In this document: positions 9,001-40,767 of the stretch, in pieces
Layout of the letters: each line of letters starts with the position of its first letter
Position numbering within the stretch: the stretch's first letter is position 1
NCBI GenBank assembly: GCA_034440635.1
Contig: JAOTON010001570.1
Coordinates: 248,001-312,000 of the forward strand
DNA: 64,000 nt
Direction: 5' to 3'
From: Lepas anatifera
Taxonomy: Eukaryota > Arthropoda > Thecostraca > Lepadidae
Translations under genes and position numbers: made by a program
Notes under the pieces: model-generated
Database searches by the model: none
What the model was told of the DNA's origin: nothing
What the model saw: the letters and a program-made list of their open reading frames with translations, nothing else

Positions 9001-12000
9001 TCAGCTCCATCAGCTTGAAGTCATCCTCCGCCTGAAGTGGCTCAGGAATCAGGCCCGCCATGTACAGACACTTCCCTGTAAGGAGACAGACAGAAGCTCA
9101 GGAATCAGGCCCGTCAGGTACAGACACTTCCCAGTCGGGAGACAGACAGAAGCTCAGGAATCAGGCCCGCCATGTACAGACACTTCCCTGCAAGGAGACA
9201 GACAGAAACTCAGGAATCGGGCCCGCCATGTACAGACACTTCCCTGTAAGGAGACAGACAGAAGCTCAGGAATCAGGCCCGTCAGGTACAGACACTTCCC
9301 AGTCGAAAGACAGACAGAAACTCAGGAATCGGGCCCGCCATAAACAGACACTTCCCTGTAAGGAGACAGACAGAAGCTCAGGAATCAGGCCCGTCAGGTA
9401 CAGACACTTCCCAGTCGAAAGACAGACAGAAGCTCAGGAATCAGGCCCGCCATGTACAGAGACTTCCCTGTAAGGGGACAGACAGAAGCTCAGGAATCAG
9501 GCCCGCCATGTACAGACACTTCCCAGTCGAAGGACAGATAGAAGCTCAGGAATCAGGCCCGCCATGTACAGACACTTCCCCTGTGGGGAGACAGACAGAA
9601 GCTCAGGAATCAGGCCCGCCATGTACAGACACTTCCCTGTAAGGAGACAGACAGAAGCTCAGGAATCAGGCCCGCCATGTACAGACACTTCCCCGTCGGG
9701 AGACAGACAGAAGCTCAGGAATCGGGCCCGCCAAGTACAGACACTTCCCAGTCGGGAGACAGACAGAAGCTCAGGAATCGGGGCCCGTCATGTACAGACA
9801 CTTCCCTGTAAGGAGACAGACAGAAGCTCAAACAACACTGATGGCATGTGCGGATAGACAGTAGAGGAGCGGCCGTGGCTCCGGAAACACGCACACCATT
9901 GTACAGACATTTCCCAGTGGCGAGAGACAACGTCGACGTCGCGACAGCACTGTGGAGAAGAGGTAGCGATTGAGCTCTAGACTCCGACTAAGAATAGTTT
10001 TTTTTATTCCGAAAGGTCCATTCTGATTCTTCCCAAGAGCAAATATTTTGAGCCGAAATCCAGACATAAACAGGCGCAGAAACACTCAGTGCCAGTCACG
10101 AATATGTCCTTTACGTGCTGACGAAATGATTTGAAAGCAAAACACAATAAATCAGACAGAGCGAGGAAGCCGAACATCAATATGCCTCATGGACGAACGT
10201 TCGCACTTTAACCGCACGTAACCCGCACCGACAAGGCTGCCCAAAGTCCACGCGGCCGCCGCCGCCTGGAAAACTACCGCGTGCACGTGTGCGGGTTCCC
10301 GGTAGCGCGCCCTTGGCGTACCCCGCCGGGCGTGGAGCGGCTCAGTCAGCTGCTGCCACTCAGCCGTGCAGCACCACGCCCCGCGGCCATCTGCCGCCCG
10401 GTGTCCCCCAGCAACCTGTTGCCGGGTGGTGTGGTGCAATGGGTCGGCCGAGCCCTCTCCAACAATGAGCACCGACAGACGCGTTGGCCTCACCCCGCGC
10501 CAGCCCCCGTCACACCCTCCCAATTAGCGGACAGAGCTCCACCAGACCCGCGGTGGTGCGCAGCTCTAGTGGCGTCACCACGGGACCACAGCTCCACCAT
10601 AAAAAACAGCGCGATTGGGGTGCGGAGAAAAGTACCCCCTGTCGGTACGAGAAGACGTCATTGCACAAGGTGACTGCGTGTGTTTACGTCAATTCGTCCA
10701 GATGCTGACATTTCTGCACTATTTCACTTGCTACCGGTTACGACAGTTCAAGGTGTGGCAACGTGCCGGGCACCAGCGCCGCTCATTCACACAGTGATAA
10801 ATTCAGAACACACCCTTTTCAGGAAACATTCCATGAACTTTCTTCACGCGACCAAATATAAACATCTTCACGGAATCACCTATTGCCCTTTCAATGGGGA
10901 CGATTTCTTGCAACAAGACCAATGGAACAAAATATCACATTTCTCAAATTGTTTACTTACAGAAGTGGTTGCCGGGGCCAGCGTAGTGATGACCTTTGTA
11001 GGCCGCGGTCATTCCTGGGTTGATCCCGATCTGGGGGGGGCAGGTCAAATGATGAAGCGGTCAAAAACGGCGTCTCCCCAAAGCACGGTCATCGGAACCA
11101 GGAAAGGGAGGGGGGGGCGTCTCACACTTTTCAACGACGGAAACAATTTCAATTTTAGCACAGCTTGCAAAAAAAGTTTGAAGTTTCTTCAGCAGTATCA
11201 GTGGAACGCAGCAGGAAACATTTTTCGGTTCAAAGTGGGTCAGCGAGGGGTTTAAGTTACACTGTCCCTTCACCGTTAACAGCCTTCTGCTTATTCAGAC
11301 TTAGTCTCGCCCTTTCGACCAGGCCGTGCCCCTGTCGCGGCCATCGTTAATGAAGTAATTGGTAGCTAATTGGCTTCAACCAATTCGGAGTGCTTTCGCA
11401 GACGGCTTTACCTGCCTTCAGATTAAGAATGGGGATTTATTTTCAAAATATTCCGGACCAGAAGATATAGAAAATGAACACATTGCCTTCAACACTCAAG
11501 TGCGAAGACTGTGGAAAAAACAACGAAGCCCTACATTTAAGATTTCCCATATCTACCTATGTCCAACCCTGAGACGTTACAACGTATCACAATCGCAATT
11601 TACGCAATTTGCATAAATCACGCCATAGGGAGTGGGATATCGAGTATTTTATACAACGTGGCTACCCACCAGGAACTCGAGGTTTCACGCGGTAGACAAA
11701 CAGAACGCACGAACAGAACGCAAGGACGGAATATAGCATGCAACAGCACCTCTCGTCCTTTTTTTGCTTATTTTCAACAATTAATACTGCCGCCCTACGG
11801 AAGAAAAACATTAGTCACGTTTTTTTCATTTTGAGATTTCGCTATCATTTAATGCAGAGAGACAAGCTGCATCTATTGATCGAATGATTTGACAAAAGTC
11901 GTAAAAAGTGAATTATATCACCTTTTCACATCAATTCCATGCATCCACTAATGTAAAACGAAACAGAAAAAGCGCTCTCCGGTAACACATTCAAACTTGA

Positions 12001-15000
12001 CGGACGCTTTTCTTCCGTTGGACGGCAGAGAAGCGCAAGTTTTTTAACTAAGCAAACACATTTCTTAGCAGAGAACTAAACAAGGCCATTGAGAAAAACA
12101 ATTACACATATAATAAAATTGCATATTTTCTCCATGGAAATGTGCCATCTTCATGGACCCTTGGTTTCATATTGTGTTCGTTCTAAAACCCCTACTAGGG
12201 TTTTAATGACGTCAAAATGGCATGGGGGTGATAATGACATGGGGTGATAATGACGTCAAAATGGCAAAAATCAGACTAGCATTTCACAAACCTGGGTGCT
12301 GATTCTTTGGTATATTTGGGAAGAAAAACTCGAATTGGCCTAAGCTCTAATATTTATTTAAAGCGCTGGCACCTTGGCTTGAAGTTTTTACTTTTTGTCC
12401 TCCAGACCAGTGCAGTTCAGCACACCATCGGGACAAACTGAGGGATGTAACTTTGTAAATGACACTGGGGATGCAACTTGCAAGTGAGATGGAACTGAGA
12501 AGGAGCCTTGTTTCGTACGCTAAGAGCACGGGCGTCGCCACGGATTTTCGAGTGGGGGGCGAAGCCAAAGTGGGGGGGGCGAAGCCAAAGTGGGGGGGGC
12601 GAAGCCAAAGTGGGGGAGGCGGGACCAGTGGTGAAACCCTTGAAAACCCCTACGTCCGCTTCGGCATTTTCAATGGTATTTTCGGCCAAAAGTGGGGGCC
12701 GGCCCCCACTTTCCAAGAGTGGGGGGGCGACCCCCCAGGCCCCCGGTGGCGACGCCCCTGCTTAAGAGCCCCAGATCCCATCCTGGGAGTATCACTACTG
12801 GCATGCTGGGACGCAGGGGGCGGGGCGGGAGAGGAAACACTTTTCAAAGGGTGCCTGGCACGGTTGGTTCAGATGACCTACGAGCGAAAACGTGGGAATG
12901 CAAGCACATGGTTGGGGGTGCAAAACTGCATTTTCTTAACCTATGTACAGCTGTCGTTGCGTTCTTGCAACAAAACATGCCTTGGTATACTTGGTGTTCA
13001 CGGAGCGGGAGTGATTTCCGGATAAAAAAATCTAGCACGAGCCAACGCACGTACCACTGCTGCGCACGGGACATGAGACCGATGAGACCAACATACTTCC
13101 AGAATCGATCGTCAGTCATTGTTGGAAGCTGGAAGAAGTGAGTGGTGATTTCTCTTTTACGGCCAATATCTACGGTAGGTAGTAAATGGGCTAAGTGTAC
13201 AAAGTTACGCAGTCTGGGGCACGCTCCAGACTGTATCGTACAAAGTTACGATCCAGTCTGGTACCGGGCGGTCATGAAGAAGAGGCGTCAGAAGCAGGTG
13301 GAGGAGAGAAACAGGGAGGACATGTCTGGGCAGTTTCAATTCAGGCCGCTCTCTGAGATAGAACTTTTGGATGAATAGAGGGATATGAAGTCCAGAGAGT
13401 GGTAGGAGTGGTAACAGTGACGATGAAGATGATGTCATTTCTGAAGATGTTGAAAAGGAAAGGAACGTAGAAGTTACCGAAGATACGAACCAGTTAGGGA
13501 AAAACGGGTTTACAGAGAATGTTGATGACCAGGATGACCCCATGCCCTCCGCATACAGGCATGTGAGGCTCGGTGAAAGAAAGGTAAGGGATAAGGGGCA
13601 AGGGTCTACACAACTCTAGCGAATCGGAGTGGTGAGGGGCTCTCGCTTACTGAATCGGTCAAAGCTGTCGTAGAGGTGGCCAACTCTTGAATTGGCAGGA
13701 CCTGGAAGGTCCCAGGAGAGGATGCTCAAAGCTTTAGCGTGGACACGATGCCCCACGTGCAAAACAGGGAGATGTTGAACATGCTGGATGCCCAGTCCTC
13801 GGACCTACTGGTGGACAGGATGGCGCAGGGCAAAGTGGAAGGGAGAACCCTCACCCACTACACCGACACAAGTACCAAGAAGCAGGGATGTCTCATGGTG
13901 CTGCTCGGCGAGCGTGTGGAACGGCAAGTGCTGGACTATGGAATATTCCAGGAGTTTCTTGAGAACTTGACACTCTGAGAAGAAGAAGAGATGTGATCCC
14001 TGCCTGATGCACAATGTAAAGTTATAGGAGTTCAATAAATGTGGAAATATGATAATTTACTTCAGCGTTTATTGGCTAGCTGACTACTCTACCAAAGTGG
14101 TCAGTTGCATGCTAAGCTCAATTTGCCACAAAACTTTGGTCCAAGGTGCCAGGGTTTTAAAATTAAGTCAGAGAGCTCAAACTTTCACAATGTTTATGTA
14201 TATACACAAAAATCATTTTACCAGGTTTGTGGGAGATTCTAAAAAAATGCAATTATCACCCCACCCTACGTCTAGTCTCCGTTGAAAGTATGCTCGGTCC
14301 GGCGTCCAGCCCGCGACATGCAGTGGGGGGGGGTGGAGGACGGGGGTGCAGACAGCAGACAACAGACCACTTCCGCTCCGGAAACGCCTCTATTTGCGAC
14401 GCAACCAGTTCGGGGACCAACGAAGCACGATACCCAGAGGCTGGCCATTATTTTGCAAATATGATTAGCGGTGCATGCCTAACACAGCGATTTTGCTGCT
14501 TCCCACACTCATAGAGAGGGAGAATGTAAGGTTCATCAGTTCATTGGGTCTTGACATAAGAGAGCAACGTCCCAGGCATTTTTAAGCGGGTCAATTATTC
14601 ACGCCGCTATTGATTTCTTTATTATAGAAATCATTCTCTGAAGCCGGGCGTTACCACGGATAGCCCGGGGTCTCCTTCACTGGCCATTAGGGGTGTCCAG
14701 ATTTCGTTTTTTTCGAAAAATTGTAGAAAGCCGTGGTTTTTCCCATGGTTTCAAGCATTCTCAGTTCATTTATGCACAAAAAACCAGGTTTAAACAACAT
14801 TTAGGGGTCGCGAATTTGATTTCAAAATGGGAATTTTGGCCATTTTTTGCCAAAATTGGGACAAAAGTGCATATACCCAGACCGTTATGGATATTATCAA
14901 TATAAATGTATGTTAATTGAATAGAATAGCTCATTAGCTTTCGTTTGATACCAGTTTGGTATAAATATCACTTTTGGTTGACTTTTTATAGGCCTTCAGT

Positions 15001-18000: not shown

Positions 18001-21000
18001 TTTCACACTGTGAAGGTTAATCGGGTTGACAAACAGCGATGCCAATTTTTGCCATCATATTTTAAGTATAAGCAAAAAATAGAACAGCTTCCTTTTCAGT
18101 CGCTACGCACCAGAGCAAGTTTGAAGTCCCCGTAGGTACAGGTAATTTCAGGATATTATTGAAGATCAAATTGAATATATGGACTTCTGACACCACAGTC
18201 GTCATGTAGGCTTACCTGAGCATGCTGAATATTTTTCCAAATAGTTTCGCACATAATTTAGATAGAGCTTTCATTTTAATGTCATTGTGTTTATATCGAC
18301 ACTAGGAGCCCACTAGCATGAGTCAGGCCATTGTCACCATTTGACTTAGCATGTTCATACTGCACAGGCTTCGTATCGCCGCAAGATGCCTTAAATGATG
18401 CCTAGATATGCGCTTAACGCCACTCGGTGAGAATCTAAAGGTGTAAATTTGCAATGCCCTATTGTAATTCTTTAGAATCTACTTTGGCCTCTGGCGACCT
18501 CAATCCTGACCTGGCCTAAACGTGGTTGATATAATTTCTCCTCGCCCCGTTGATAGCCTTGAAAGTCAATCTGAAACTCATTTCTACATTTTTTCGGGAA
18601 TGAGACAGACAGAGGGGAATACGTCTTCCACTGCGGGCCCCGTCAGGTTGGTGATGGACCACAGCAGAGCGCGCGGTAACACTGGCAATGAATCTGCAAT
18701 GCTAATTTTTTCTGGTTTACATCGCATAATAATCCAACTACCATTTATTAGCTGCATGCTTCACTTGGTTGTGAAATACACCCGCGGTGCGGCGGAGCCG
18801 ACACGCGATTCCCACGAGCCCTTGTAACTTCGTGTTTGGAAAAGCTACTGATCCGCATAAAAAGGAACTTGAACCGTCAGCATGCAAGAGGGTTCACCAA
18901 ACTTTCAAACAAACGTAACATTAATCCACCAATTATGTGAGGGACTGAAAAAATTACTCCACTTGCGAATGCTTATGAGCAACCCAAGCAGTCATTATGT
19001 TTTCGACTGATTTTATTGCATTTTCTGAAACATTGTTATGGAACACCTTACCTAGAGAGATACATTCTTCAGAGCAAATACAATATTTTACAAGTGTTAG
19101 CACTCTCGCACCCAAAAAGGCTTCTTACTGGTTTTATCTACCCTCTACAACATTTTGACAGGTGGCGCTGCGATTGCTTCCACGAGCATTATAGGTATAT
19201 TGAAAATCCTGTCGCATACATACACTTTCCTTTACCCTTTAGTATTCCACTTTCCTTTACCCTCATCCATCCTTATCCTTGCCGTCTCCTGCCATAGTTT
19301 CCATTGTTTCATGTTCATTGCGACGGCACTTGAAAAGCCACTACATGTGTGGAAGTGTTCACAGCTAATACAATAATACAATACAATAATACACAATATA
19401 GACGAGCTTGACCCAAGATTGTATTGCTGAAATGACCTCAAACTTTCAAAAATACCATGAGATGGGTAACGCCACTGTTTTTCTTACCAATTTTGAACCC
19501 GCACAGCCGAATGCTCCAAGTTCGTGGTGCACGGTCTCGAGATTTAAAAAATCTGCACCTCTGAGGTCATATTCGGAGTCGGCGCCTCAAAATGCATCCG
19601 ATAACACCCTAGGAGCAGTATTTCCAAACAAAATTGCAAAAGCGGTCATCCTATTCTTCACGTCAACGGATCCAGGCGGCGACAAAAGTATTTCTACACT
19701 GTAGTACTGCTACAGTCCGAGCTCCACCGAGGGCAACACAGTTTAATTCTGGCTGCAAATATCATTCCGTCTTTTGCATCTTTTCGGTCATTGCAGCCCA
19801 CATTTGTCAGAGGGGATGAACAATTAAGGCCACCGCTCATGCACCCAGTCCAAGCCACTTTTTCCGTAGAGGTAGTGAAGTCATAAGAGGAGTGCAGACG
19901 GAAAATAACATAATGTACTGATCCCTTCGCAGGCATGAGACTGTAGCATCAAGTCCAACTAAGAGCCATTAAGTGGAAGGGCTCTGAATTTCTCATGACA
20001 GTATCGAAACAAACAAAAAATTAGCACCAAAGTTACGAGGCAGCCCGTATCCGCCAATGAGTTACTATTCACACTTGCAAGTTGGGAAGGGGATATGCAA
20101 AACCAACTGGAAGCTGGAGCAGCTTAGACATCTATCGAACAAACGATAGCCCTACAAAAAACGTCAAACAAAAACAAGAATTTTTCACATGAAAATATGT
20201 TTCGTAATCCCAGCACAGAAACAGGGAAGGCTTTAGTTGGAATAGTCCAGAAATGGAGCTCACACGAAAGACAATCCTTAATATTCTACAAACCCAAACA
20301 CTCAACTTTAAATTTGGCTGGAAACAGGGTCGACAGGCAGTACTTTTATTCAAACCGAAACTGAATGAGTCATCCCTGTCTTGTGCCAGTAGCAGCCCCG
20401 GCAGCTACAGAGGACACCACGGCGTTAGACGTCAGCCAGTACTCACAAACACCATGTTTGTGAGTCGAGGCCGGCGGCCAGTACTCACAAACACTATGTC
20501 GAAGCCGGAAGCCAGTACTCACAAACACTATGTCGAGGCCGTCAGCCAGTACTCACAAACACTATGTCGAGGCCGGCGGCCAGTACTCACAAACACTATG
20601 TCGAGGCCGGAGGCCAGTACTCACAAACACTATGTCGAGGCCGTCAGTACTCACAAACCAATGTCCAGGCCGGAGGCCAGTACCCACAAACACTATGTCA
20701 GCCGTCAGTCAGTACCCACAAACACTATGTCGAGGTCGGCGGCCAGTACCCACAAACCAATGTCGAGGCCGGAGGCCAGTACTCACAAACGCTATGTCGA
20801 GGCCGGAGGCCAGTACCCACAAACACTATGTCATCCGTCAGTCAGTATTCACAAACACTATGTAAGCCGTCAGTCAGTTCTCACAAACACTATGTCAGCC
20901 GTCAGTCAGTACTCACAAACACTATGTCGAGGCCGGAGACCAGCACTCACAAACACTATGTCAAGGCCGTCAGTCAGTACTGACAAACACTATGTCGAGG

Positions 21001-24000
21001 CCGTCAGTCAGTACTCACAAACCATATGCCGAGGCCGGGGGCCAGTACTGACAAACACTATGCCGAGGCCGGAGGCCAGTACTCACAAGCACTATATCGA
21101 GACCGACGGCCAGTACTCACAAACACTATGTCGAGGTCGAGGACCAGTACTCACAAACACTATGTCGAGGCCGGAGGCCAGTACTAACAAACACAATGTC
21201 GAGGCCGTCAGTCAGTACTCACAAACACTATGCCGAGGCCGGGGGCCAGTACTGACAAACACTATGTCGAGGTCGAGGACCAGTACTCACAAACACTATG
21301 TCGAGGCCGGAGGCCAGTACTAACAAACACAATGTCGAGGCCGGAGGCCAGTACTCACAAACACTATGTCGAGGCCGGCGGCCAGTACTAACAAACACTA
21401 CGTCGAGGCCGGCGGCCAGAACTCACAAACACTATGTCGAGGCCGGAGGCCAGTACCCACAAAAACTATGTCAGCCGTCAGTCAGTACTCACAAACACTA
21501 TATCAGGCGTCAGTCAGTACTAACAAACACTATGTCGACGACGGAGGCCAGTACTCACAAACACTATGTCGAGGTCGAGGACCAGTACTCACAAACACTA
21601 TGTCGAGGCCGGAGGCCAGTACTAACAAACACAATGTCGAGGCCGTCAGTCAGTACTCACAAGCACTATATCGAGACCGACGGCCAGTACTCACAAACAC
21701 TATGTCGAGGTCGAGGACCAGTACTCACAAACACTATGTCGAGGCCGGAGGCCAGTACTAACAAACACAATGTCGAGGCCGTCAGTCAGTACTCACAAAC
21801 ACTATGCCGAGGCCGGGGGCCAGTACTGACAAACACTATGTCGAGGTCGAGGACCAGTACTCACAAACACTATGTCGAGGCCGGAGGCCAGTACTAACAA
21901 ACACAATGTCGAGGCCGGAGGCCAGTACTCACAAACACTATGTCGAGGCCGGCGGCCAGTACTAACAAACACTACGTCGAGGCCGGAGGCCAGTACTCAC
22001 AAACACTATGTCGAGGCCGGCGGCCAGTACTCACAAGCACTATGTCGAGGCCGGCGGCTAGTACTCACAAACACTATGTCGAGGTCGATGGCCAGTACTC
22101 ACAAACACTATGTCGAGGCCGGAGGCCAAGACTCACAAACACTATGTCGAGGCCGGAGGCCAAGACTCACAAACACTATGTCGAGGCCGGAGGCCAAGAC
22201 TCACAAACACTATGTCGATGCCGGCGGCCAGTACTCACAAACACTATGTCGAGGCCGAGGATCAGTACTCACAAACACTATGTCGAGGCCGGCGGCCAGT
22301 ACTCACAAACACTATGTCGAGGCCGGCGGCCAGTACTCACAAACACTATGTCGAGGCCGGCGGCTAGTACTCACAAACACTATGTCGAGGTCGATGGCCA
22401 GTACTCACAAACACTATGTCGAGGCCGGAGGCCAAGACTCACAAACACTATGTCGATGCCGGCGGCCAGTACTCACAAACACTATGTCGAGGCCGAGGAT
22501 CAGTACTCACAAACACTATGTCGAGGCCGGCGGCCAGTACTCACAAACACTATGTCGAGGCCGGCGGCCAGTACTCACAAACACTATGTCGAGGCCGGCG
22601 GCTAGTACTCACAAACACTATGTCGAGGTCGATGGCCAGTACTCACAAACACTATGTCGAGGCCGGAGGCCAAGACTCACAAACACTATGTCGAGGCCGG
22701 AGGCCAAGACTCACAAACACTATGTCGAGGCCGGAGTCCAAGACTCACAAACACTATGTCGATGCCGGCGGCCAGTACTCACAAACACTATGTCGAGGCC
22801 GAGGATCAGTACTCACAAACACTATGTCGAGGCCGGCGGCCAGTACTCACAAACACTATGTCGAGGCCGGCGGCCAGTACTCACAAACACTATGTCGAGG
22901 CCGGCGGCTAGTACTCACAAACACTATGTCGAGGTCGATGGCCAGTACTCACAAACACTATGTCGAGGCCGGAGGCCAAGACTCACAAACACTATGTCGA
23001 GGCCGGAGGCCAAGACTCACAAACACTATGTCGAGGCCGGAGGCCAAGACTCACAAACACTATGTCGATGCCGGCGGCCAGTACTCACAAACACTATGTC
23101 GAGGCCGAGGATCAGTACTCACAAACACTATGTCGAGGCCGGCGGCCAGTACTCACAAACACTATGTCGAGGCCGGCGGCCAGTACTCACAAACACTATG
23201 TCGAGGCCGGCGGCTAGTACTCACAAACACTATGTCGAGGTCGATGGCCAGTACTCACAAACACTATGTCGAGGCCGGAGGCCAAGACTCACAAACACTA
23301 TGTCGAGGCCGGAGGCCAAGACTCACAAACACTATGTCGAGGCCGGAGGCCAAGACTCACAAACACTATGTCGATGCCGGCGGCCAGTACTCACAAACAC
23401 TATGTCGAGGTCGATGGCCAGTACTCACAAACACTATGTCGAGGCCGGAGGCCAAGACTCACAAACACTATGTCGAGGCCGGAGGCCAAGACTCACAAAC
23501 ACTATGTCGAGGCCGGAGGCCAAGACTCACAAACACTATGTCGATGCCGGCGGCCAGTACTCACAAACACTATGTCGAGGCCGAGGATCAGTACTCACAA
23601 ACACTATGTCGAGGCCGGCGGCCAGTACTCACAAACATTATGTCGAGGCCGGCGGCTAGTACTCACAAACACTATGTCGAGGTCGATGGCCAGTACTCAC
23701 AAACACTATGTCGAGGCCGGAGGCCAAGACTCACAAACACTATGTCGAGGCCGGAGGCCAAGACTCACAAACACTATGTCGAGGCCGGAGGCCAAGACTC
23801 ACAAACACTATGTCGATGCCGGCGGCCAGTACTCACAAACACTATGTCGAGGCCGAGGATCAGTACTCACAAACACTATGTCGAGGCCGGCGGCCAGTAC
23901 TCACAAACACTATGTCGAGGCCGGCGGCCAGGTAGTCGGGCAGCGTCAGCCGCGACAGCTGCTCCGGTGTCAGCCCGTTGAACCGGTCGTGCTTCTTACG

Positions 24001-27000
24001 CGGCCGGCTCGGGTCGCCCGAGCGCACCGGAGTTTTGTACTTGGGCACCTCCATGCCGGCCGCAGCCCTGCCGGCCATACGTGCGCATCAGCATCGGCCG
24101 TGACTGCGGGCCCAACAACGCCGCTGCTCCACCGCACTTGGTGAAACAGGGTTGAAGCGGGGCTGACACAGTTCTTGGCGAAAAGAAACGAAGCAGTTGA
24201 GGCAAACCAAATCCAAATCACTTTTCCATTCCATTCGAATTCAAAATTAAATTGACCTTACATGACGTTTCTAGGCCAATTGGGCTATTTGGAGGGTTTT
24301 TTAGCCAAATTACACCTGGCATCCTCCCCTCCATCGTTTTCAGTGGAGTGTGCTGAACCAGCTACCAGGACAGTCAGCAGAAACACGGGCTTGCAGTCTG
24401 CAACCCGTTCACTACAAAGGCTCGGCAACAAAACTCTAGCTTGGTCAGGGGACTGCACAAGAAAGGCGGTCAAGTCTGTTAACGAGAGTCTCATCAGCCG
24501 GGTCCAATTAATTACACTTTGTTCATTTCAGGCGGTCTCAGAAGCGAAACCATTTCGCAGTTTTTTTTTGCATCAGGGAAAACCTACACACACGGGCACT
24601 GCGCTATCGTACCAGGTCTAACATTACGACAAACCCTCTTTCCCCGAAAGCAATTCAGAGATCTGATACCAGGATTCGGTATGCCGCTGCACACAAATTG
24701 GCTTCGTCCGTCACGGTCTGATAACTGGAGCACTTCCAAAGAATGCCAGAGACTAATTTTTTCCTTTATATATACAATACATTATTTAACCATCAACACA
24801 CAATCCAGGAGAAACCTCATTCAAAGAGACAGCACACCACCATGCCGCAGAAGCAATGAGTGCATTCGCAGTGCAACAGCATTCATTCAGAGCCACAGAC
24901 GGGGTGCTCGCGCTACACCCCTGCAGGACCAGACACGTCCCCTGATCCACTAGAGGGATCTGTCAACTGGGACGAGACCACCCCGCGATGATTCCCATGT
25001 TTTGACATGTTGTTGTATCCTATACTTAGTTTTGCTATGCTTCCTTCCAGACAAAGAAAACTGGGTATTTCATATCTTAACTGTTCAAAGTCGGGACCTT
25101 AGGTACCTTCTTGTCCCAGTTTTTTTGGTAAGAATGCTTTGTTTGGCTAGCAGGATCATCGAACTATCTTAGGAACAGTCGAGGAGCCTAGTAATACAGT
25201 TTGGTGACTTATGAAACTGTTTGATAGATTACAAGTTCGCTGTACAAGGGGAAGGATTTTATCCCACATTTACTTCACACTATTACATTCATAGACAATG
25301 TTGCAGGTTATCCAGTGGGAAACACTTCACGCACAGGGGGTTGCCAACGATACCTGGTGTGGTCGGATACTTTCTGGTTGGAATATATTTGTGGATGATA
25401 CGGTAGTGCAGCGACTGGAACTTAGCTGATACTATACATCTATACGGCATTTCGTAGATTCTTTGCCAATTCTGTATGCTTATACCATAAAATTGTGATC
25501 GCTTTGCAGCTGCAGGAACATTGGACGTTAGCTGCTTCTCGTAAAAGTGGTCAGCCTAACATTGTATTAAAGGAGTATGCTTATCTGGCTCAGTCCAAAA
25601 ATACAGATCCCAGCCTGAATGTATGGTTTCGGCGAAGTTTATTTTTCCATTCAGGCGGAATTGCCGATTGTAGTCTTTGTAAAGGAAGAAAGTCTAATCT
25701 AACACGAAAGGTATATATATATATATATATATGGATGGACACTGCCCTAGGGCTGCCCATTTTACTGACACCCCCAGGTTTGCAAAATAGTCCACCAGAT
25801 TCCCATTATTTGGGCTAAATGCTACTCAGCACTGGTTTTGGTTTCCTCGAGACTCGACAAGCTCCTATATCGTACCAATACACAGTAGGCCATGTCGTGA
25901 TCACCACTTTTCACAGGGTATTCGATTACCGGGTGTTTTCTAATGTATTGATGGCCGCTGATCACGATTTTCTGGTCGAAAATGTCGAATTCGAAAAATA
26001 TTTGCCCGCGCAAGCCGTTTGATATTCTTCCGGTTTGCCAAAATTTCGATGTTTTCATATCTCACGGACAATAAAGGCAACTGATGTATTGAAAAGGCCC
26101 AGAACTTTAAAACCATTGAACCTGAACAATTTGAAACCTTTTTGACTCCCTGAAATATATACTTACCTGAAAAGTACCTTGGAAAAACGGGGACGTTTAA
26201 GCTTAAAAAATTATAATAGGTGGCGCGCATGACGCAGCCGTCAACCACTGTCCGCTACGTCGCTTATGACAAGGAGCTATTAGCCAAAGGAGCTGGATAT
26301 AGGATTTGAGCCTATTTTGAATTCGATGAATGAATATTTACCTTCACAAGATGATCTATATTTCTCTCGCTTGCAGTTTTAAATATTATTGGTAATGGTT
26401 GCTTTCAAGCAGGTCCCATTAAGATCAGCCAGTCATATATAGATTAGGTATGTAAGCATGTAGTCATTGCGGATCAATTTCAAGTATTAAAATGTATGCA
26501 AGAGCCAGTCGGTTATATTTAGATTAGTCTTGCTATCACTAGAAGGAGAATACCGCGTTTCGGGAAAATGAAGCTACACCACACCTAGCGCCGCCGTCAA
26601 GCCGCTTAACATGCTTAACATGCATGCTGCCGCTTAACCAGCTCTCGATTGGAGCTGACGTTGTCGGTCAATTATGATGCTGTGGCTTGAAGAGATGGAG
26701 GCCAGGAAAGTGGACGAATTTCACGTTTCAATAGCCTAATATTCGAACCGACCGCTGATGAAGTTACCGAGACTTACAGAAGAGCATTTGTGCCAGCAAG
26801 AAACAAGTACAAAGTTCGCTGTGAAATAAGGAAGCACTGTAACCTGAAGGAAGCGATCAGAAGGCGCCTACAAAACATGAAGATATTGTAAGCATGGACA
26901 AAGCATGACAACATTGTTTGACATATAAAGCTGAGCTTTACCATCAAACGCATCGGCAAACAGAACATTTCTGGAAGACGAGCGAGAAGCAGAGAGGTAG

Positions 27001-33000: not shown

Positions 33001-36000
33001 CTGAATCTGGTACCAGCTTCAGCAGCTGAAGGTGGTTGACTGCTGCTGACTGCTCGTATGTTTGCTCAGCTCCTTCTTCTGTCTGTTGAATTTGTCTTCT
33101 CTTGTCGAGTATTGCTTGACATTTGGCCTTTCTTTCGCATGTTTATTTCATTCTTCGCATAATGTTTCTTTCCGCTGATCTCAGCTGCATCTTCCCTGTG
33201 GTTCTTACCTTGACACGCTGATATATCACGGACCTCAGCTCATCTGTCGGAATTTTGTCCTCCCGAAACCAGTCGCATGTACTCGTAACATGAATGCCCA
33301 ATTTACACGTTGGCAATTTACGCTCTGACAGGTTTTGTTTGGGCATTTGCAAATGGAAGTGTCAAAAAGCCTGTCCAGTCCTCTGGAGAATGCCTCCCTC
33401 GGACTGTTTTCCTCTCGATTTTTTCGTCCGCTTTGACTGGTCGTAGAGTCTCTCCAATTTGTTATCAATCTACTTTTCTGTGATTGCTGCCAGCTTGGAG
33501 TAGACGCACCGCCATTCCTTAATTTCGGGTGCAACCGCCCTCGTAAGGCCTCTTGGTGGTAATACTTTTTTGGCAGTGCTTTCTTTTACAAGCTACATTC
33601 TTGCTAAGGCGTTCCGCAGCGTTGGTAGGTCCGACTTGGGGAGCTCTGATGATGGTCCACTCACCACGCTCGGGCCAGAACGCTTACTTCGCATGTTTGT
33701 TCGACTCATTTTCCTACGGTTTACTCGTCTTTGATATCCAGAATACACTTCAAATCATTCCTTACCCCCCCTGACCTGAGAACAAATCTGATGGACCGAC
33801 CAACCGACCTGACAGCAGACAGATGCTGCAAGTCCCAGGAAAAGAAACGTAGTCCCTCATTTGTTTTGAAACCAGCCCAGCTTTTCGAAGGCAAACACAC
33901 GGCAGAGGTAATTTGCTAAATCTGCTGTGATGACATGCAATGCAGAAACGCCTTTGCTGCCTGCATCGCATAGAGTAAAGCTTATTTAAAAAAAAACGTT
34001 TTGCCCGATGTAATCAGCTCAGAACCCGATAACAGCAATGCAGTAGGCACTTCCTGTAACTCAATCAATATACATTTTATGGATACTGAGACAAGGTTCA
34101 TTCTGGCTACATAGAGCAGAAAGGTAAGTTAATATGTTAGCCATGAATTGCGTGTACCGTGCGTGCCTGCATGCACATAGCTTTATACAAAATAAATAAA
34201 GCTGAATGGCTCTGCGTTGTTATGCTTAAATTCGACATGCTATGAACATTTGAGCCTCAATATTTTGTAAAGCGTTCATCTTATTTATATTTTGGATAGG
34301 TTTTAATCGATTTATCTCATCGAGATCTTTCAAATGAGGTACTATTTTGCATACTTGCGGCTTTTGGAAGATGATGCACAAAATGGGTAACACGCGAAAA
34401 TCAAGACTATACAAAAACCAAAATGGCCGGGTATCGCAGACATTTTTGACAACTTTAACACGCGCATTGACGGGGGTCTGAGCCACCTTCGCATTGACGG
34501 GGGGGCGGGTACCCCCAAGATCTCGAGAACCACGGTAGGTAGCGAAAACGGTAAACGGCGTTGGGTTGCCCATCCACTTTCCATCGAAAACATTTGAACC
34601 ATTTTTTGTCAGGTCACATTTAAGGTCACGAGAGGTCAAACATGCCGTCATAGGGATAACATGTAAATTCAGTTTTTCGGCCATTACATCTGAACAAGTA
34701 AAGATAGACCAAACGACTTAAACTATATGAATTTCTCAGCAAGCCGAATCGAATGATATATAATTTGACCTTGCTAGGTCAAATCAAGGTTTGACCTGAC
34801 CTGAGGTCGGTCAGGGTCAATTATATAAAGCAAATCATAAGAACCGCAAAGCCCGGGCGAGTCTAATGCAGCTAAAATAAATGCTCTATCACCACCCGTT
34901 ACTGGTTATTCCGTAAAACAATTTTTCCATGTATTTCCAATGGGGGTCATGCCTCGTACCTGACCTTAGGTCATCGATATCAAAATACCGGAACATATTT
35001 TGAGAACTCGGTGGGGCCATTATGTGATATGGTTTCAATCGGATAAGTTCACCCTGCTCCGACTTATGCTATCTTAAACTTTTTGAGGTCGGGTCCTTGA
35101 CCTGCACTGGTGACCTGACCTGACATGACCTAACATTAAAATTTTCCGAAGTTGTAAAATGATGGGGAAAAGGTATACCAGTACGGCGGCGCTACGCGCT
35201 TTTTGTTATCTCCAAAACCCGAGGGGGCGGGTCCGCCCCGTAATGCGTGTTAAGCATTATTTTTGGACTCAGCATGTCCGAAGGCACTAAAAAATTACTG
35301 AGCTGGGATGATTCTCTAAAATTATGTTATTTCACCCCACCTTACTAAACGGCCATTTGTCGTAAGCCCAATATCGAAAACCAGCATTGCGCGTGCTTGC
35401 TTGAACCACCCGATAGAAGGCCTTCATTTGAAGCAAAAATCATCGTTCGATCGCAATTGGTTTTTGAGCTAGATATTCCACCCCGTTTTCTTCTGGCCTC
35501 CTGCATCACTGTGTATTGGTACGATATAGGAGCTATGTTCAACCCCGCTGCACATGGCCAGTTTTCGAGTCTCGAGGAAACCAAAACCAGTTCTGAGTAG
35601 CTTTTAGCCCAAATAATAGGAATCTGGTGGACTATTTTGCAAACCTGGGCGGTGCCAGTAAAATGACCAGCCCTAACACTGCCCTATAAACGTGCCAGCA
35701 ATCAACTTTGCAAATCACAAACATACCTGTGCTCTGCGGGGATCCCAAAAATAAGTCCGGAACAAGTCAAATCAAGCGGGAGAGTATGGACGCATCCTCT
35801 TCCCGTAGCTGTGTAGATATAACCAAAAATTTATTGCAGCTTCCCGCCGCACAGAGCCTTCCCGGATAGAACACACCTACAACTGCCCTATCGTGATGGA
35901 AATCGGCAGAGCAGTGACAGGGGCCGCGCTACCAAACCACTGAGCGACTGACACAATGATCACTGCGCACCAGGTACCCACTGAATGGCTGTATCACAAC

Positions 36001-37238
36001 CCACAACATGGACGGTAACAGGAACGCCAGACACAGAACATGGACGGTAACAAGAACGCCAGCACGGGCTCACCCACGCTTAGGCCCCACCGACCACCAA
36101 CAATCAGAATTTTGCACGATTTCGATGGAGAGCTGGATAGTAGGTACAGGTTTCAGCAAAACCGCTATGCTTACTTCCTGATCTGTTCAATCCAAGGCCT
36201 AAATTGTTTTACACCGAGTATGGAACAGGTGTTAAAGCGCTTTCATTCCGTACTGTAATTATGATCGAATCTCAAACACCGAGGACTTAATTCATTCTCT
36301 CTTGATTTAATGTTAGCAAAAAGAGATAGCTAAAAATCGTACGTAGAAACAGAAACGTTCCTAAAAACATTGCTTGTATACAATAAATCTCATTTCATAA
36401 GAAAAAACCAACTAGATCTCTCATAAAAAGTGAACACATTAAAAGAGCAAGGATTTTAATCATAATCATTCAAACTTGAGAACACAAAGAAAAATAAAAC
36501 TAAATCGGTTGTTATGCGCAACAAAATTCGCTTCTAGAGCATGCTCCCTGCCTGGCTTAGTCCCAACATAACTTCGCTACTCCTATTTGAGAGCAAACCT
36601 CACCTCAGGAAAAAAACACGAACGACCTAAGGCTAATTCCAGCCGCTATCAGTTGTGATTTCGATAAAACTATCCACGATTTGGTTATAAATCCCCAGAA
36701 ATAAATCTATGATACCTTTGTGCTTTGCTACCGAACTGCTTTGAAATCACAAATAGATAGCTGTAATACCAACTGTTGACGGTTCTGAACTTGGCCTAAG
36801 ACAACCTAACCAGCTCCACCCTGAGGCGTGAGAACTTACATCGCCTCCAGCAGTTTTTTGGGCTTGCGTCCGCGCTTCTTGGGGAACTGGAAGGGCAGCA
36901 GGGGCGGAGCAGCGGCCTCCACCTTCTCGACGCTGACGACCGGAGCCGTCGGCTCCGACACATCCTCCGAGAAGCTGTACGGGTCCTCGTGCTGGGCAGC
37001 CAGCTTCTGCTGCGCCGGGGCAGCCCCCACCGGCGGCAAAGCTCCCCCGCCGCCGCCGTAGCCGGCTGTGCCGTGGCTCACGGGTGGCGGGTACGGCGCC
37101 GAGCGGCCGTACCCGTCAGAGAAGGCGCCGCGGTCTCCGTACAGCTCGGGCCGAGGCGTGTCCGAGGCGGTGTCGGGAGGCTCCAGCCTGCTGTGGGGAG
37201 GCGGTGGCGTTGGCTCCGGAGGCCGCTCTCCCTCAGAC
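3271..37238 (-). CDS. TDG: Thymine DNA glycosylase (TDG) gene, six recognised coding exons, 5' end not found
   Basis: This is a G/T(U)-mismatch DNA glycosylase of the uracil-DNA glycosylase superfamily. In animals it excises thymine or uracil paired with guanine, and in vertebrates also 5-formyl- and 5-carboxylcytosine, during nuclear base excision repair. The coding exons are 36840-37238, 23905-24067, 10961-11030, 8926-9075, 8502-8644 and 3271-6093. All have GT donors and AG acceptors, and the phases match at every join (2/1, 0/0, 1/2, 1/2, 0/0). The joined product carries [47 protein letters not shown] and [10 protein letters not shown], which are TDG hallmarks. The recognised part is about 1,250 residues against 410 in human TDG; the excess is AT-hook N-terminal and Q/SPA-rich C-terminal sequence. 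Drosophila Thd1 is likewise a very large TDG. The first exon is missing because exon 36840-37238 begins at an acceptor. Introns two and three are each about 12.8 kb and full of repeats. Confidence 0.95.
4440..4900 (-). repeat. Coding repeat of YGQQSPA/FGQSPA units in TDG tail
   Basis: On the minus strand the frame reads repeated Tyr/Phe-Gly-Gln-(Gln)-Ser-Pro-Ala blocks of 7 to 14 residues, at least a dozen copies, with short spacers such as AQTA, ANNG and ASAQ. The composition (aromatic, Gly, Gln, Ser) is like prion-like low-complexity domains of FUS/EWS-type proteins. That likeness is compositional only, and a role in condensation or protein binding is inference. Confidence 0.8.
5397..5422 (-). 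repeat. CAG/CTG trinucleotide run coding polyglutamine
   Basis: An uninterrupted run of ctg on the plus strand (cag on the coding strand) gives eight Gln in the TDG tail. Further imperfect CAG tracts spread over 5060-5390. Such runs are prone to length change. Confidence 0.9.
6096..8501. other. TDG intron E-F
   Basis: This intron of about 2.4 kb contains the fold-back element at 6637-7616. The remainder (6096-6636 and 7617-8501) shows no coding similarity or clear repeat. Confidence 0.7.
6637..7616. mobile_element. Mariner-like fold-back element with arms of about 415 bp
   Basis: The ends are TACAGGGTGTTTCATAAAG and its inverted copy at 7598-7616. Sequence 6639-7056 is repeated in inverted orientation at 7196-7614 with few differences, leaving about 140 nt between the arms. 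TA dinucleotides flank the ACAGGGTGTTTC ends, as expected for Tc1/mariner insertion at TA. There is no transposase frame. It sits in the TDG intron between exons E and F. Confidence 0.75.
8502..8644 (-). CDS. TDG: TDG exon [18 protein letters not shown]
   Basis: This 143-nt exon lies between the acceptor tctttctgtttcag (AG at 8645-8646) and the donor gtgagtg at 8501. Its first two bases complete Gly. It encodes [20 protein letters not shown], then [20 protein letters not shown] and KIEGTQT. The VAVFNGK-IYEIF core is near identical to vertebrate TDG (IAVFNGKCIYEIF). It ends in phase 0. The intron to exon D is only 279 nt and carries no tandem array. Confidence 0.95.
8926..9075 (-). CDS. TDG: TDG exon D: KCLYMAGL to KEG
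   Basis: This 150-nt exon starts after the acceptor tctccttacag (AG at 9076-9077). Its first GG completes the Trp of GPGNHFW. It encodes [20 protein letters not shown], then [10 protein letters not shown] and [19 protein letters not shown], and ends with the first base of Gly at the donor gtacgt. Human TDG has KCLFMSGL, GIGFTNMVERTTPGSKDL and REGGRILVQKL at these places. The first 36 nt are repeated in the 56-bp array that adjoins the exon start. The exon-proximal acceptor is intact and is taken as the functional one. Confidence 0.95.
9040..9831 (-). repeat. Array 2: 56-bp minisatellite carrying the exon D 3' splice site
   Basis: About 14 units of 56 bp start inside exon D. Read on the gene strand, each unit holds a branch-like cctgattcc, a pyrimidine tract (ttctgtctgtctcc), the acceptor position, then the first bases of exon D (GGAAGTGTCTGTACATGG and on to CCTGATTCCTGAGC). 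So 36 nt of exon and 20 nt of intron are repeated together. About eight units keep a usable AG (ttacag, ttgcag or cacag) and about six have lost it (gactg or gacgg). The exon-proximal unit is intact. A degenerate relative continues near 9890-9930. Confidence 0.93.
9932..10960. other. TDG intron C-D remainder
   Basis: The intron between exons C and D beyond the array. A GC-rich stretch at about 10240-10600 has open frames on both strands but no recognisable protein. I see no RNA gene. Confidence 0.5.
10961..11030 (-). CDS. TDG: TDG exon C: catalytic GINPG motif
   Basis: This 70-nt exon lies between the acceptor cccccccag (AG at 11031-11032) and the donor gtaagt (10960-10959). It encodes [20 protein letters not shown] then NHF, plus the first base of a Trp codon. 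GINPG holds the catalytic Asn (human Asn140), and YKGHHY and GPGNHFW line the pocket and contact DNA in the family. The upstream exon ends LDIVF and joins in phase 0 to give LDIVFIGINPG. The pyrimidine tract is an unusual run of Cs. The exon is too short to stand out as an open frame and is recognised only by motif. Confidence 0.95.
11033..12518. other. TDG intron B-C, exon-C-proximal part
   Basis: AT-rich intronic sequence. A short direct duplication of a gataatgacgtcaaaatggc-like segment lies at about 12205-12265. No gene is seen. Confidence 0.5.
12527..12760. mobile_element. Small hAT-like non-autonomous element with internal 19-bp repeats
   Basis: The terminal inverted repeats are CACGGGCGTCGCCAC on the left and, reversed, CAGGGGCGTCGCCAC on the right. 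The flanks gctaagag (12519-12526) and cttaagag (12761-12768) look like an 8-bp target duplication with changes in the first two bases. Inside, a unit of about 19 bp (gcgaagccaaagtgggggg) is repeated three times at about 12558-12620. No coding capacity. Confidence 0.65.
13142..13980 (+). pseudogene. Degenerate transposon-type open frames
   Basis: Fragmentary frames encode [20 protein letters not shown], then an Asp/Glu-rich stretch, and at 13739-13978 [20 protein letters not shown] through [20 protein letters not shown]. The style resembles an unnamed, highly repeated invertebrate transposon-borne protein family, but I cannot assign a named superfamily. Stops and frame changes between the blocks indicate a dead copy. 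It lies in a TDG intron on the opposite strand. Confidence 0.4.
15697..15996 (+). pseudogene. Left-arm copy of a transposon ORF (C-terminal part)
   Basis: The frame reads a Lys/Arg/Glu-rich helix ([20 protein letters not shown]), then an acidic [16 protein letters not shown], then an Ala/Lys region ending [10 protein letters not shown], where the SINE interrupts. The mirrored arm carries the matching sequence at 16321-16530 on the minus strand ([16 protein letters not shown]). The product is unrecognised. The charged acidic block is like those of unnamed repeat-borne invertebrate proteins. Confidence 0.45.
15997..16169 (+). mobile_element. tRNA-derived SINE, copy 1
   Basis: It starts near gggggatgggtggcttag. 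An A-box-like TGGCTTAGTGGATAGCGC is followed by the B box GGTTCGAGTCC and a SINE body ending aacaattattatta. The flanks atcagccaagacg (15984-15996) and atcaaccaagacg (16170-16182) are a 13-bp target duplication with one mismatch. A second copy is at 38214-38397. Confidence 0.8.
16573..17127 (-). pseudogene. Right-arm copy of a transposon ORF (N-terminal part)
   Basis: A 184-codon frame reads [40 protein letters not shown], then a segment rich in Arg and Cys and [20 protein letters not shown]. The mirrored left arm at 15366-15617 carries the same [20 protein letters not shown] stretch. The overall plan (N-terminal helical part, LFD/LFS-type motif, Lys/Glu coiled coil) fits an unnamed repeated protein family; no enzyme motif is visible. 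An alternative is untranslated repeat sequence that happens to stay open. Confidence 0.4.
17761..20430. other. TDG intron B-C, unannotated part
   Basis: AT-rich intronic sequence without recognised genes, RNA genes or clear repeats. Short open frames have no recognisable domains. Confidence 0.5.
20431..23930 (-). repeat. Array 1: 34-bp minisatellite carrying the exon B 5' splice site
   Basis: About 100 head-to-tail units. On the gene strand each reads roughly ccggcctcgacatagtgttt then gtgagtactggccg. That is the end of exon B (coding AGLDIVF) followed by its donor GTGAGT. The unit touching the coding sequence (23905-23930) is the exon end itself. All units I read keep the GT; most are gtgagt, with variants gtgggt, gttagt, gtcagt and gtgaat. 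From about 22080 to 23900 the units form a higher-order repeat of nine (306 bp); from 20431 to about 21900 units are more diverse and some are shortened. Confidence 0.96.
23905..24067 (-). CDS. TDG: TDG exon B: start of glycosylase core (DRFNG to LDIVF)
   Basis: This 163-nt exon follows the acceptor ccggcag at 24068-24069 and its first G completes Met. It encodes a basic linker (SRPRKKH), then [20 protein letters not shown] and AAGLDIVF. This matches the start of the TDG catalytic domain (human DRFNGVSEAELLTKTLPDIL, then LDIV). It ends in phase 0 at GTGTTT before the donor gtgagtac at 23904. The acceptor has a weak pyrimidine tract, but its phase is correct. The last bases of the exon and the donor are the founder unit of the 34-bp minisatellite that begins directly at this exon edge. 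Confidence 0.93.
24070..25738. other. TDG intron A-B, exon-B-proximal part
   Basis: Intronic sequence with no recognised gene. A (TA)n tract of about 20 bp lies at 25711-25731, just before the large fold-back element. Confidence 0.5.
25886..28499. mobile_element. Nested fold-back element B, 2.6 kb
   Basis: It is flanked by exact atacacag copies (25878-25885 and 28500-28507). Its ends carry AGGCCATGTCGTGATCACC in inverted orientation. The two halves are inverted copies of each other over more than 1 kb each. A 14-bp perfect stem (gttgcgttctgacg at about 27312 with its complement at about 27338) lies near the middle. Removing it restores the left arm of element A so that it mirrors the right arm. 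Confidence 0.8.
29050..30515. mobile_element. Inner inverted-repeat structure with ORF remnant
   Basis: Sequence 29050-29330 (containing gaagcttcacgtgtaacaca) is repeated in inverted orientation at about 30210-30515. Between them are two diverged inverted copies of one coding segment, at 29567-29820 on the minus strand and 29890-30190 on the plus strand. It forms the core of element A or a separate insertion inside it. Confidence 0.55.
29892..30191 (+). pseudogene. C-terminal fragment of an unnamed transposon-borne protein
   Basis: The frame reads [20 protein letters not shown], then [10 protein letters not shown] and [20 protein letters not shown], and ends [14 protein letters not shown]. 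The pattern of a V-N-x-x-V-x-N-x-x-A-E-R core is, to my knowledge, common to an abundant unnamed protein family of invertebrate genomes. No enzyme motif is seen. The N-terminal part is missing here. An inverted, decayed copy at 29567-29820 encodes the matching [20 protein letters not shown]. Confidence 0.5.
31010..31138. repeat. Palindromic hairpin element of about 129 bp
   Basis: Arms of about 60 nt (for example ggttggcatccggcgaccga and, inverted, tcggtcgctggatgccaact) flank a very short loop near 31073. It could be a minute fold-back element. No promoter or terminator role is suggested. Confidence 0.6.
32510..33700 (-). pseudogene. Decayed ORF of element C, unnamed invertebrate repeat protein
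   Basis: Read 5' to 3' the fragments give [18 protein letters not shown] near 33640, a middle basic region with [14 protein letters not shown] near 33320, and at 32510-33001 a 163-codon frame with [40 protein letters not shown] and [20 protein letters not shown] ending [14 protein letters not shown]. Stops and frame changes separate the blocks. The PCHTQ-x-VE-x-C-x-KLVT motif is one I know from numerous unannotated proteins of invertebrate genomes. It is likely mobile-element encoded but has no named function. No DDE triad could be assigned. Confidence 0.5.
34455..35253. mobile_element. TTAA-flanked element D, copy 1
   Basis: It begins TTAACACGCGCATTGACGGG and ends with the near-inverse GTAATGCGTGTTAA, so TTAA could be the target duplication as in piggyBac-type elements. 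It has no coding frame of note. The interior is dense in AGGTCA/TGACCT hexamers. A second copy is at 41668-42520. Confidence 0.7.
35685..36839. other. TDG intron A-B, exon-A-proximal part
   Basis: AT-rich intronic sequence. A short duplicated segment (acatggacggtaacaggaac, twice) lies at 36005-36060. No gene seen. Confidence 0.5.
36840..37238 (-). CDS. TDG: TDG exon A: AT-hook N-terminal region
   Basis: This 399-nt exon starts after the acceptor ctctgtggcag at 37239-37240 and ends at GCGAT before the donor gtaagt. It starts with the last base of a split codon and ends with AT, completed to ATG (Met) by the next exon. The first residues are [15 protein letters not shown] Pro/Gly/Tyr-rich linker follows, then an acidic stretch ([13 protein letters not shown]), and the exon ends in [14 protein letters not shown], an AT-hook-like basic motif. 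Its role is probably non-specific DNA binding, as for the basic N-terminus of vertebrate TDG; this is inferred. The first 27 nt are repeated in the tandem array just upstream. An ATG lies inside it at 37079-37081, but the open frame continues upstream to the acceptor, so I do not take that as the start. Confidence 0.85.
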
Positions 37239-37490
37239 CTGCCACAGAGGAGACGGTCAGCGGCGCCTCCCAGCCACTCTTCTGGGAGAGGCTCCGGAGG
37301 CCGCTCTCCCTCAGACCTGCCACAGAGGAGACGGTCAGCGGCGCCTCCCAGCCACTCTTCTGGGAGAGGCTCCGGAGGCCCTCTCCCTCAGACCTGCCAC
37401 AGAGGAGACGGTCAGCGGCGCCTCCCAGCCACTCTTCTGGGAGATCCTCCGGAGGCCGCTCTCCCTCAGACCTGCCACAGAGGAGACCAA
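37212..37490 (-). repeat. Array 3: 78-bp repeat carrying the exon A 3' splice site
   Basis: Four units (78, 77 and 78 bp apart) have acceptor AGs at 37239-37240, 37317-37318, 37394-37395 and 37472-37473. On the gene strand each contains a branch-like cgctgacc, the tract gtctcctctgtggcag, and then GTCTGAGGGAGAGCGGCCTC, the start of exon A. All four acceptors are intact. The exon-proximal one opens the coding frame SEGERPPE. The repeat therefore spans the intron-exon junction, like arrays 1 and 2. Confidence 0.9.
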
Positions 37491-40399: not shown

Positions 40400-40767
40400 C
40401 CGCTCCGACAGAAGCCGCTCCGACAGAGCGCAGCCGCCCCGACAGAAGCTGCTCCGACAGAAGCCGCTCCGACAGCAGCTGCAGCCGCTCCGACAGAAGC
40501 CGCTCCGACAGCAGCTGCAGCCGCTCTGACAGAAGCCGCTCCGACAGAAGCTGCTACGACAGAAGCTGCTCCGACAGAAGCTGCTCCGACAGAAGCCGCT
40601 CCGACAGAAGCTGCTCCGACAGAAGCCGCTCCGACAGAAGCTGCTACGACAGAAGCCGCTCCGACAGAAGCCGCTCCGACAGAAGCTGTTCCGACAGCAG
40701 CTACCGCCGCTCCGACAGAAGCCGCTCCGACAGCAGCTACCGCCGCCACAGAAGCCGCTCCAACAGA
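40400..40767. repeat. 15-bp tandem array, left part
   Basis: About 24 units of gccgctccgacagaa with variants (gctgct and gctacga forms). It is open in several frames and reads EAAPT-type repeats on the plus strand. It stops at the boundary of the 7.4-kb insertion and continues on its far side at 48211. No coding role can be supported. Confidence 0.85.

Follow-up and report, generated by a model that had tools for sequence, protein, structure and literature searches.

Minisatellites built from splice junctions in the TDG gene of Lepas anatifera, and the density of tandem-array edges at exon boundaries

Minisatellites that span exon–intron boundaries have so far been reported gene by gene, in amphioxus and at a few human loci. 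The amphioxus cases are known as mirages, tandem repeats lying across exon/intron boundaries, and are described in Adh3, in the globin genes BflGb6 and BflGb9, in troponin C and in PGBD5; evidence from reverse transcription PCR (RT-PCR) for regular splicing is reported for them, together with length instability. Here we describe arrays of this kind in the TDG gene of Lepas anatifera, within a stretch of 64,000 nucleotides (assembly GCA_034440635.1, contig JAOTON010001570.1, positions 248,001 to 312,000 of the forward strand), hereafter called the window, to which the position numbers refer. With moderate confidence, we read the TDG arrays as mirage-type minisatellites, in which an exon edge and its splice site are repeated into the adjoining intron, and take tandem-array edges in the sampled genes to be about 3 to 7 times denser per base on or next to a splice junction than the rest of the sequence predicts; local tandem duplication likely favours junctions.

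In structure, the amphioxus mirages are the same as the TDG arrays. The differences lie in scale and setting: the BflGb6 mirage has 3–6 units, against up to about 102 units with a nine-unit higher-order pattern in L. anatifera, which belongs to a different phylum and carries several arrays per gene (2–3 in TDG, four in C2CD5, two in MSH6). The density of array edges at junctions was also measured here. Three further systems are related. In human ABCA7, a variable number tandem repeat (VNTR) of intron 18 lies beside the exon, with a 25-bp unit that starts with the exon 18 donor GT and about 12–427 units (PMC5954066). That array thus begins at a donor, at one human locus, and both retention of one unit and skipping of exon 19 have been seen (PMC5954066). 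In human IFI6 (6-16), minisatellite units serve as downstream splice donors (PMC4526556, citing Turri 1995); it is one human gene, and its decoys are used. The Rogers model proposes intron gain via tandem duplication of AG|GT segments (cited in PMC3087553) and shares with the present case a local duplication of exon-junction sequence that supplies splice sites; unlike in that model, the copies here sit within an existing intron and no new intron is shown. An initial annotation of the window knew of no described class of junction-derived minisatellites, a statement that the amphioxus mirages and the ABCA7 array overturn. Within the open-licence literature, as far as searches show, what is new is the arthropod host, the occurrence of more than one array in a gene, with a higher-order pattern, and the measured concentration of array edges at junctions.

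Boundary-spanning arrays in TDG

TDG lies on the minus strand of the window. The initial annotation had placed three arrays in it, with unit lengths of 34, 56 and 78 bp, and Tandem Repeats Finder (TRF) recovers all of them at the same places. The longest, array 2 (20440..23931, minus strand), consists of about 102 tandem 34-bp units (TRF: 20464-23931, 102.5 copies), each made up of 27 nt of the end of exon B (CTGGCCGCCGGCCTCGACATAGTGTTT) followed by 7 nt of its donor (GTGAGTA). The first, terminal unit is the end of exon B itself (23905..24067, minus strand), identical to a unit type that recurs along the array. The donor GT is intact in all 102 full-length units (103 of 103 in a second parse), and GTGAGT is kept in 83 of the 102. 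The 57 exon-proximal units largely follow a nine-unit (306 bp) higher-order pattern with few breaks and comprise 10 unit types, against 30 types in the 45 more diverged distal units. This regularity amounts to homogenisation within the cluster, one of the marks of a mirage.

Array 1 (9040..9830, minus strand; 14.1 copies of 56 bp by TRF) contains 14 tandem units, each joining 22 nt of intron that end in the acceptor CCTTACAG to 34 nt of exon D (GGAAGTGTCTGTACATGG..). Exon D (8926..9075, minus strand) begins CCTTACAG|GGAAGTG and forms the terminal unit, and a degenerate older copy lies upstream of the array, reaching about 9932. The acceptor AG is intact in only 8 of the 14 units; five of the other six read CGACTGG there. 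The description of every unit as a complete splice-site module therefore suits array 2, with GT in 102 of 102 units, and fits array 1 only in part. In both arrays the terminal unit is the real exon and the unit spans the exon–intron boundary, as it also does in the C2CD5, MSH6 and kinase cases described below. Dispersed introner-like elements would show one unit at many unrelated loci; among the cases inspected, unit sequence varies from case to case, a comparison limited to these loci. The 27 nt of exon in each array 2 unit set it apart from the ABCA7 type, in which the unit starts from the donor and holds little exon.

The donor B and acceptor D junctions are firm predictions, because they agree both with the predicted TDG protein of Pollicipes pollicipes (DIVF|IGINPG and HFW|KC, respectively) and with a paralogue elsewhere in the genome. 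The Pollicipes protein aligns across the A/B, B/C and C/D junctions without extra residues.

Array 3 (37212..37487, minus strand; TRF: 37212-37487, 3.6 copies of 78 bp) has a unit of 52 nt of upstream sequence plus 26 nt of the probable start of exon A, and, judged from the sequence, it probably lies at the acceptor of that exon. In the two copies closest to exon A the 78-bp unit stays open in frame with TDG, and an alternative acceptor 48 nt downstream, CCCCACAG|CAGG, scores 8.2 bits against 8.9 bits for GGCAG|GTCTG, both being in phase. These features would also suit an in-frame coding repeat of 26 residues in the N-terminal exon of TDG rather than a splice-site array, a minority reading that carries real weight. 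It is opposed by the loss of one base, and with it of the open frame, in the copy that starts at 37444, third from the exon, and by the fair quality, at 8.9 bits, of the acceptor CTCTGTGGCAG|GTCTG. The initial annotation had listed one 5' and two 3' splice sites, and an exon as the last unit of each array. Donor B (array 2) and acceptor D (array 1) bear this out, and array 3, its acceptor being unproven, is not counted as a proven splice junction.

A search for TDG across the assembly (1.04 Gb, 2126 contigs) returned the gene and one paralogue, with no second allele found in this one assembly. The second TDG gene, on contig C918 (708232-743042; loci L081 and L082), matches this gene in the position of the exon B acceptor and of every junction of the four introns that separate exons B to F. 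No TRF array occurs in the part holding exons C to F (L082); around exon B (L081), TRF arrays occur only about 1.5 kb upstream of the exon, and the 4 kb read beyond donor B are free of them. In the stretches read, the paralogue lacks arrays at these junctions, so that array gain in one copy or array loss in the other dates from after the divergence of the two. The paralogue's arrayless junctions serve as an internal control for the TDG arrays. A whole-genome duplication has been reported in barnacles (PMC11331182), and the C918 gene may be an ohnologue derived from it.

Array edges at splice junctions

Junction-derived arrays also occur in other genes, and three in one gene, held to be exceptional in the initial annotation, are matched nearby by four in C2CD5, and MSH6 has two. 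MSH6, mapped with the Pollicipes protein, has 17 introns (34 junctions). Arrays of 57 and 55 bp, ending in the exon as terminal unit, are found at its donors 7 and 14. C2CD5 has 18 introns, of which 15 were kept (30 junctions) and three dropped before counting for poor protein fit. Its arrays lie at acceptors 2, 15 and 19 and at donor 16; acceptor 15 has 43 parsed units of 33 bp, and the array at acceptor 2 is weaker, matching at 27/40 at best. The two best MSH6 matches and the best C2CD5 matches are barnacle proteins. The introns of C2CD5 (contig C1477:179122-214403; L007, L009, L011, L013 and neighbours) are about half tandem repeat, including arrays of 63 copies of 43 bp and 108 copies of 35 bp.

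A third set was drawn from protein kinase genes: 60 exons, chosen blind to their sequence from 139 Pfam PF00069 matches, without stops and mostly in short open frames. It supplied 119 script-called junctions, with manual corrections for L028, L044, L050, L053, L060 and L072; the acceptor of L022 was dropped as not callable. Clear arrays are present at the donor of L051 and the acceptor of L060 (53-bp units, 11 parsed). The array at the L074 acceptor has a unit that holds CCACCGGGACCTG, with the HRDL codons, and the donor arrays of L028 (GTTG|GTAGG) and L073 (GGCG|GTTAGT) include little exon in the unit and are ABCA7-like. The L072 acceptor shows a two-copy duplication, L053 is an older two-copy case, and L044 and L054 are borderline. 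An assembly artefact is unlikely, because independent cases are found on separate contigs.

Together these genes provide 183 junctions outside TDG (119 from kinases, 64 from MSH6 and C2CD5). Edge density was measured by counting, on the way out of each exon into its intron, the first array edge encountered; this is the cleanest test, since modern and ancestral distances agree before the first array. Within -40..+25 nt of a junction there are 24 first edges in 11,051 bp, compared with 20 in 65,317 bp beyond (P = 6.3e-10), or 2.17 against 0.31 per kb, a 7.1-fold difference. Bootstrapping by exon or locus gives 7.1 (4.0–12.9), and the ratio ranges from 3.9 to 10.8 over six window definitions. TRF arrays (score at least 80, at least 2.5 copies) number 17 per 11,370 bp near junctions and 11 per 72,254 bp far from them. 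The kinase loci alone yield 14 edges in 7,298 bp near against 14 in 52,894 bp far. Some of these loci overlap (L036/L069, L048/L067, L058/L066 and, by 191 bp, L024/L068) or are nearly identical (L037/L039, 97% alike); without the five redundant loci the counts are 14 near and 13 far, a ratio of 7.7, with L023/L061 (88% alike over 1018 bp) retained. Near edges occur at 11 of 92 donors and 13 of 91 acceptors, so that, as in mirages, both kinds of boundary are affected, in TDG (donor B, acceptor D) and in genes elsewhere. At about one in eight sampled junctions a tandem array starts on or beside the junction, often with units derived from the exon edge and splice site of that same gene. These counts support the earlier suggestion that junctions are preferred starting points of arrays.

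The hazard of meeting an array edge climbs with local guanine-plus-cytosine (GC) content, from about 0.3–0.4 to about 0.9–1.2 per kb. This raises the possibility that GC-rich, exon-like sequence rather than the junction is prone to duplication, and that copies inside exons are selected out, leaving survivors at exon edges. Kinase exon interiors accord with such a process, having no edges where 3.4 are expected after GC matching. GC matching nevertheless leaves a 3.1- to 4.6-fold excess: 24 near edges against 7.83 expected overall (3.1-fold, P = 2.6e-6), 14 against 4.92 in kinases (P = 6e-4), 10 against 2.91 in MSH6 and C2CD5 (P = 9e-4), and 17 against 3.71 for TRF arrays (P = 4.2e-7). Across the 60 kinase loci, exon GC and flanking repeat fraction are uncorrelated (rho -0.09, P = 0.51). 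GC content was rejected as a full explanation, since it accounts for part of the excess and not all of it, and the process just outlined is considered quite improbable.

Chance in a minisatellite-rich genome is a further alternative, in which arrays start anywhere, some include a junction by accident, copies that fall inside exons are removed, and TDG drew attention by its striking look. The repeat load makes this conceivable, as local tandem repeats occupy 12.7% of a 264-kb region and 49% of 3531 sampled C2CD5 intron positions, and several less direct tests lean the same way. One asked for a local copy of each junction 40-mer at 28/40 or better, with an expectation from uniform seeding in introns weighted to ancestral positions. 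Copies were found for 9 of 183 junctions against 4.73 expected (P = 0.052); at 26/40 the count is 12 against 4.92 (P = 0.005), and at 32/40, the strictest setting, 6 against 4.83 (P = 0.35). Asymmetric windows of 20 and 30 bases showed a larger excess (12/143 against 4.3 and 13/183 against 4.8) and were set aside as evidence, because splice consensus and pyrimidine tracts already make windows of this kind resemble one another. Repeat coverage shows no peak at the junction and falls smoothly from intron to exon, from about 12–13.5% in introns to 4.9% at the junction and 0.2% at -60..-40; as a test of seeding it was rejected, because long arrays dominate it, and replaced by first-edge density. 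In 47 arrays counted by script in 200 kb of flanking sequence, splice motifs show no clear enrichment over shuffles and random windows (donor scores of at least 9 in 4 arrays against about 2 expected; no acceptors), and the motif content of units was dropped as evidence on its own. The comparison of junctions with introns proposed in the initial annotation, made here on the 183 junctions, favours seeding in edge density; strict 40-mer copies, coverage and, in the 47 flanking arrays, motif content give less or nothing. Chance is opposed by the 7.1-fold density of edges at junctions, by the 3.1-fold excess left after GC matching and by the kinase result taken alone (P = 6e-4), and is judged rather unlikely.

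Besides the coverage, motif and 40-mer results, several points weigh against a preference for junctions. The -40..+25 window was fixed after the binned hazard had been viewed. Of the 24 near edges, no more than 16 extend into exon sequence (12 by at least 10 nt); the others adjoin the junction. Both arrays of MSH6 and the one at C2CD5 donor 16 had been seen before those genes were mapped, and against deep intron the excess in MSH6 and C2CD5 is only about 3.4-fold (10 edges in 3,753 bp, compared with 17 intervals in 21,970 uncovered bp; separately, 4 intervals in 9,961 and 13 in 12,009 uncovered bp, respectively). Kinase junctions were called by script without RNA, and the far ends of kinase introns were unseen, so that array-free exons there may lower the far rate. 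Finally, the duplication mechanism considered below rests on unit-end similarities of 5–8 nt in two arrays only, with no control: TGAGC at both ends in array 1 and CTGGC(C/T)G at both ends in array 2.

Decoy splice sites and array growth

The copied splice sites appear to be tolerated, with neither purging nor upkeep evident, because the splice dinucleotides in the copies show neither consistently. Mismatch rates at the dinucleotide and at other unit positions are, for five arrays, 0.000/0.082, 0.214/0.054, 0.047/0.038, 0.000/0.053 and 0.075/0.053. If selection kept redundant or alternative sites, with the arrays serving splicing control, intact dinucleotides would be expected, as is the case for GT in TDG array 2 (103 of 103 units) and for AG in L060 (11 of 11). 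In TDG array 1, on the other hand, AG survives in 8 of 14 units and changes more than other positions; the dinucleotides of C2CD5 acceptor 15 (39/43 kept) and L051 (17/20) change about like the rest of the unit, and only one of five unit lengths (33) is a multiple of three. Selection of this kind is highly improbable, and the initial proposal that redundant splice sites might be favoured loses its footing, as the dinucleotides show no consistent upkeep.

Under the favoured account, in which junctions are preferred sites of local tandem duplication, short direct repeats surrounding the junction would allow slippage or template switching to produce a first duplication. The array could then be enlarged and homogenised through unequal exchange and conversion, a mode of growth that the nine-unit, 306-bp pattern of array 2 fits. 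Selection would permit growth on the intron side only, because the unit contiguous with the exon must keep coding, in line with kinase exon interiors, where none of 1748 sampled positions lies in a repeat. The decoy sites may be mostly silent if, under exon definition, the two splice sites nearest to the exon itself are paired with each other. Splicing at a decoy would lengthen the transcript by 34 or 56 nt per unit and shift the frame, unless the number of units added were a multiple of three. As to why junctions should be preferred, the candidates are microhomology in the splice consensus, breaks linked to transcription or splicing, and lower harm of duplications there.

A broader idea is that junctions are birth hot spots of minisatellites in this genome, where splice signals, or DNA damage coupled to splicing or transcription, seed duplication and supply decoys for new exons and introns; we put it forward tentatively, leaning slightly against it. 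Three questions can now be approached by counting: do splice signals seed tandem duplication, how does the spliceosome ignore up to about 100 copies of its own target beside the true site, and do such arrays contribute to the birth of introns and exons? TDG, C2CD5 and MSH6 offer natural test cases for these questions.

The TDG gene and neighbouring features

Exons A to F of TDG, all on the minus strand, join into an open TDG reading frame. The spliced core matches human TDG structures at 4.3e-69, and among the best 120 of 605 matches the best homologue is the predicted P. pollicipes TDG, with 89% identity over 55% query coverage. Besides exons B and D, the gene includes exon A (36840..37238), which is N-terminal, encodes a KKRGRKPKK motif and has its 5' end at 37238 or 37190; exon C (10961..11030), encoding IGINPG..GNHF; exon E (8502..8644); and exon F (5100..6093), where the C-terminal coding region starts. 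The C-terminal TDG frame, at 3617-6117 on the minus strand, reads as poly-Q followed by FGQSPA-type repeats, and it appears to change near 4.98 kb, a shift that may stem from a genuine frameshift, a short intron or a wrong base in the assembly.

The intron between exons E and F holds a long imperfect inverted repeat at 6640-7625, recognised by eye, whose ends carry cagggtgtttcataaagaatgata and its complement; it is perhaps a palindromic mobile element. Elsewhere in the window, a 15-bp array of CCGCTCCGACAGAAG (40400-40767; 22.9 copies by TRF) adjoins TTTAAACCGG-type sequence. On contig C1477 (341670-344130, minus strand; L006 and L008), open frames with high coding scores are contained in MSH6 intron 7 (4.6 kb), on the strand opposite to that gene, and likely represent a nested gene.

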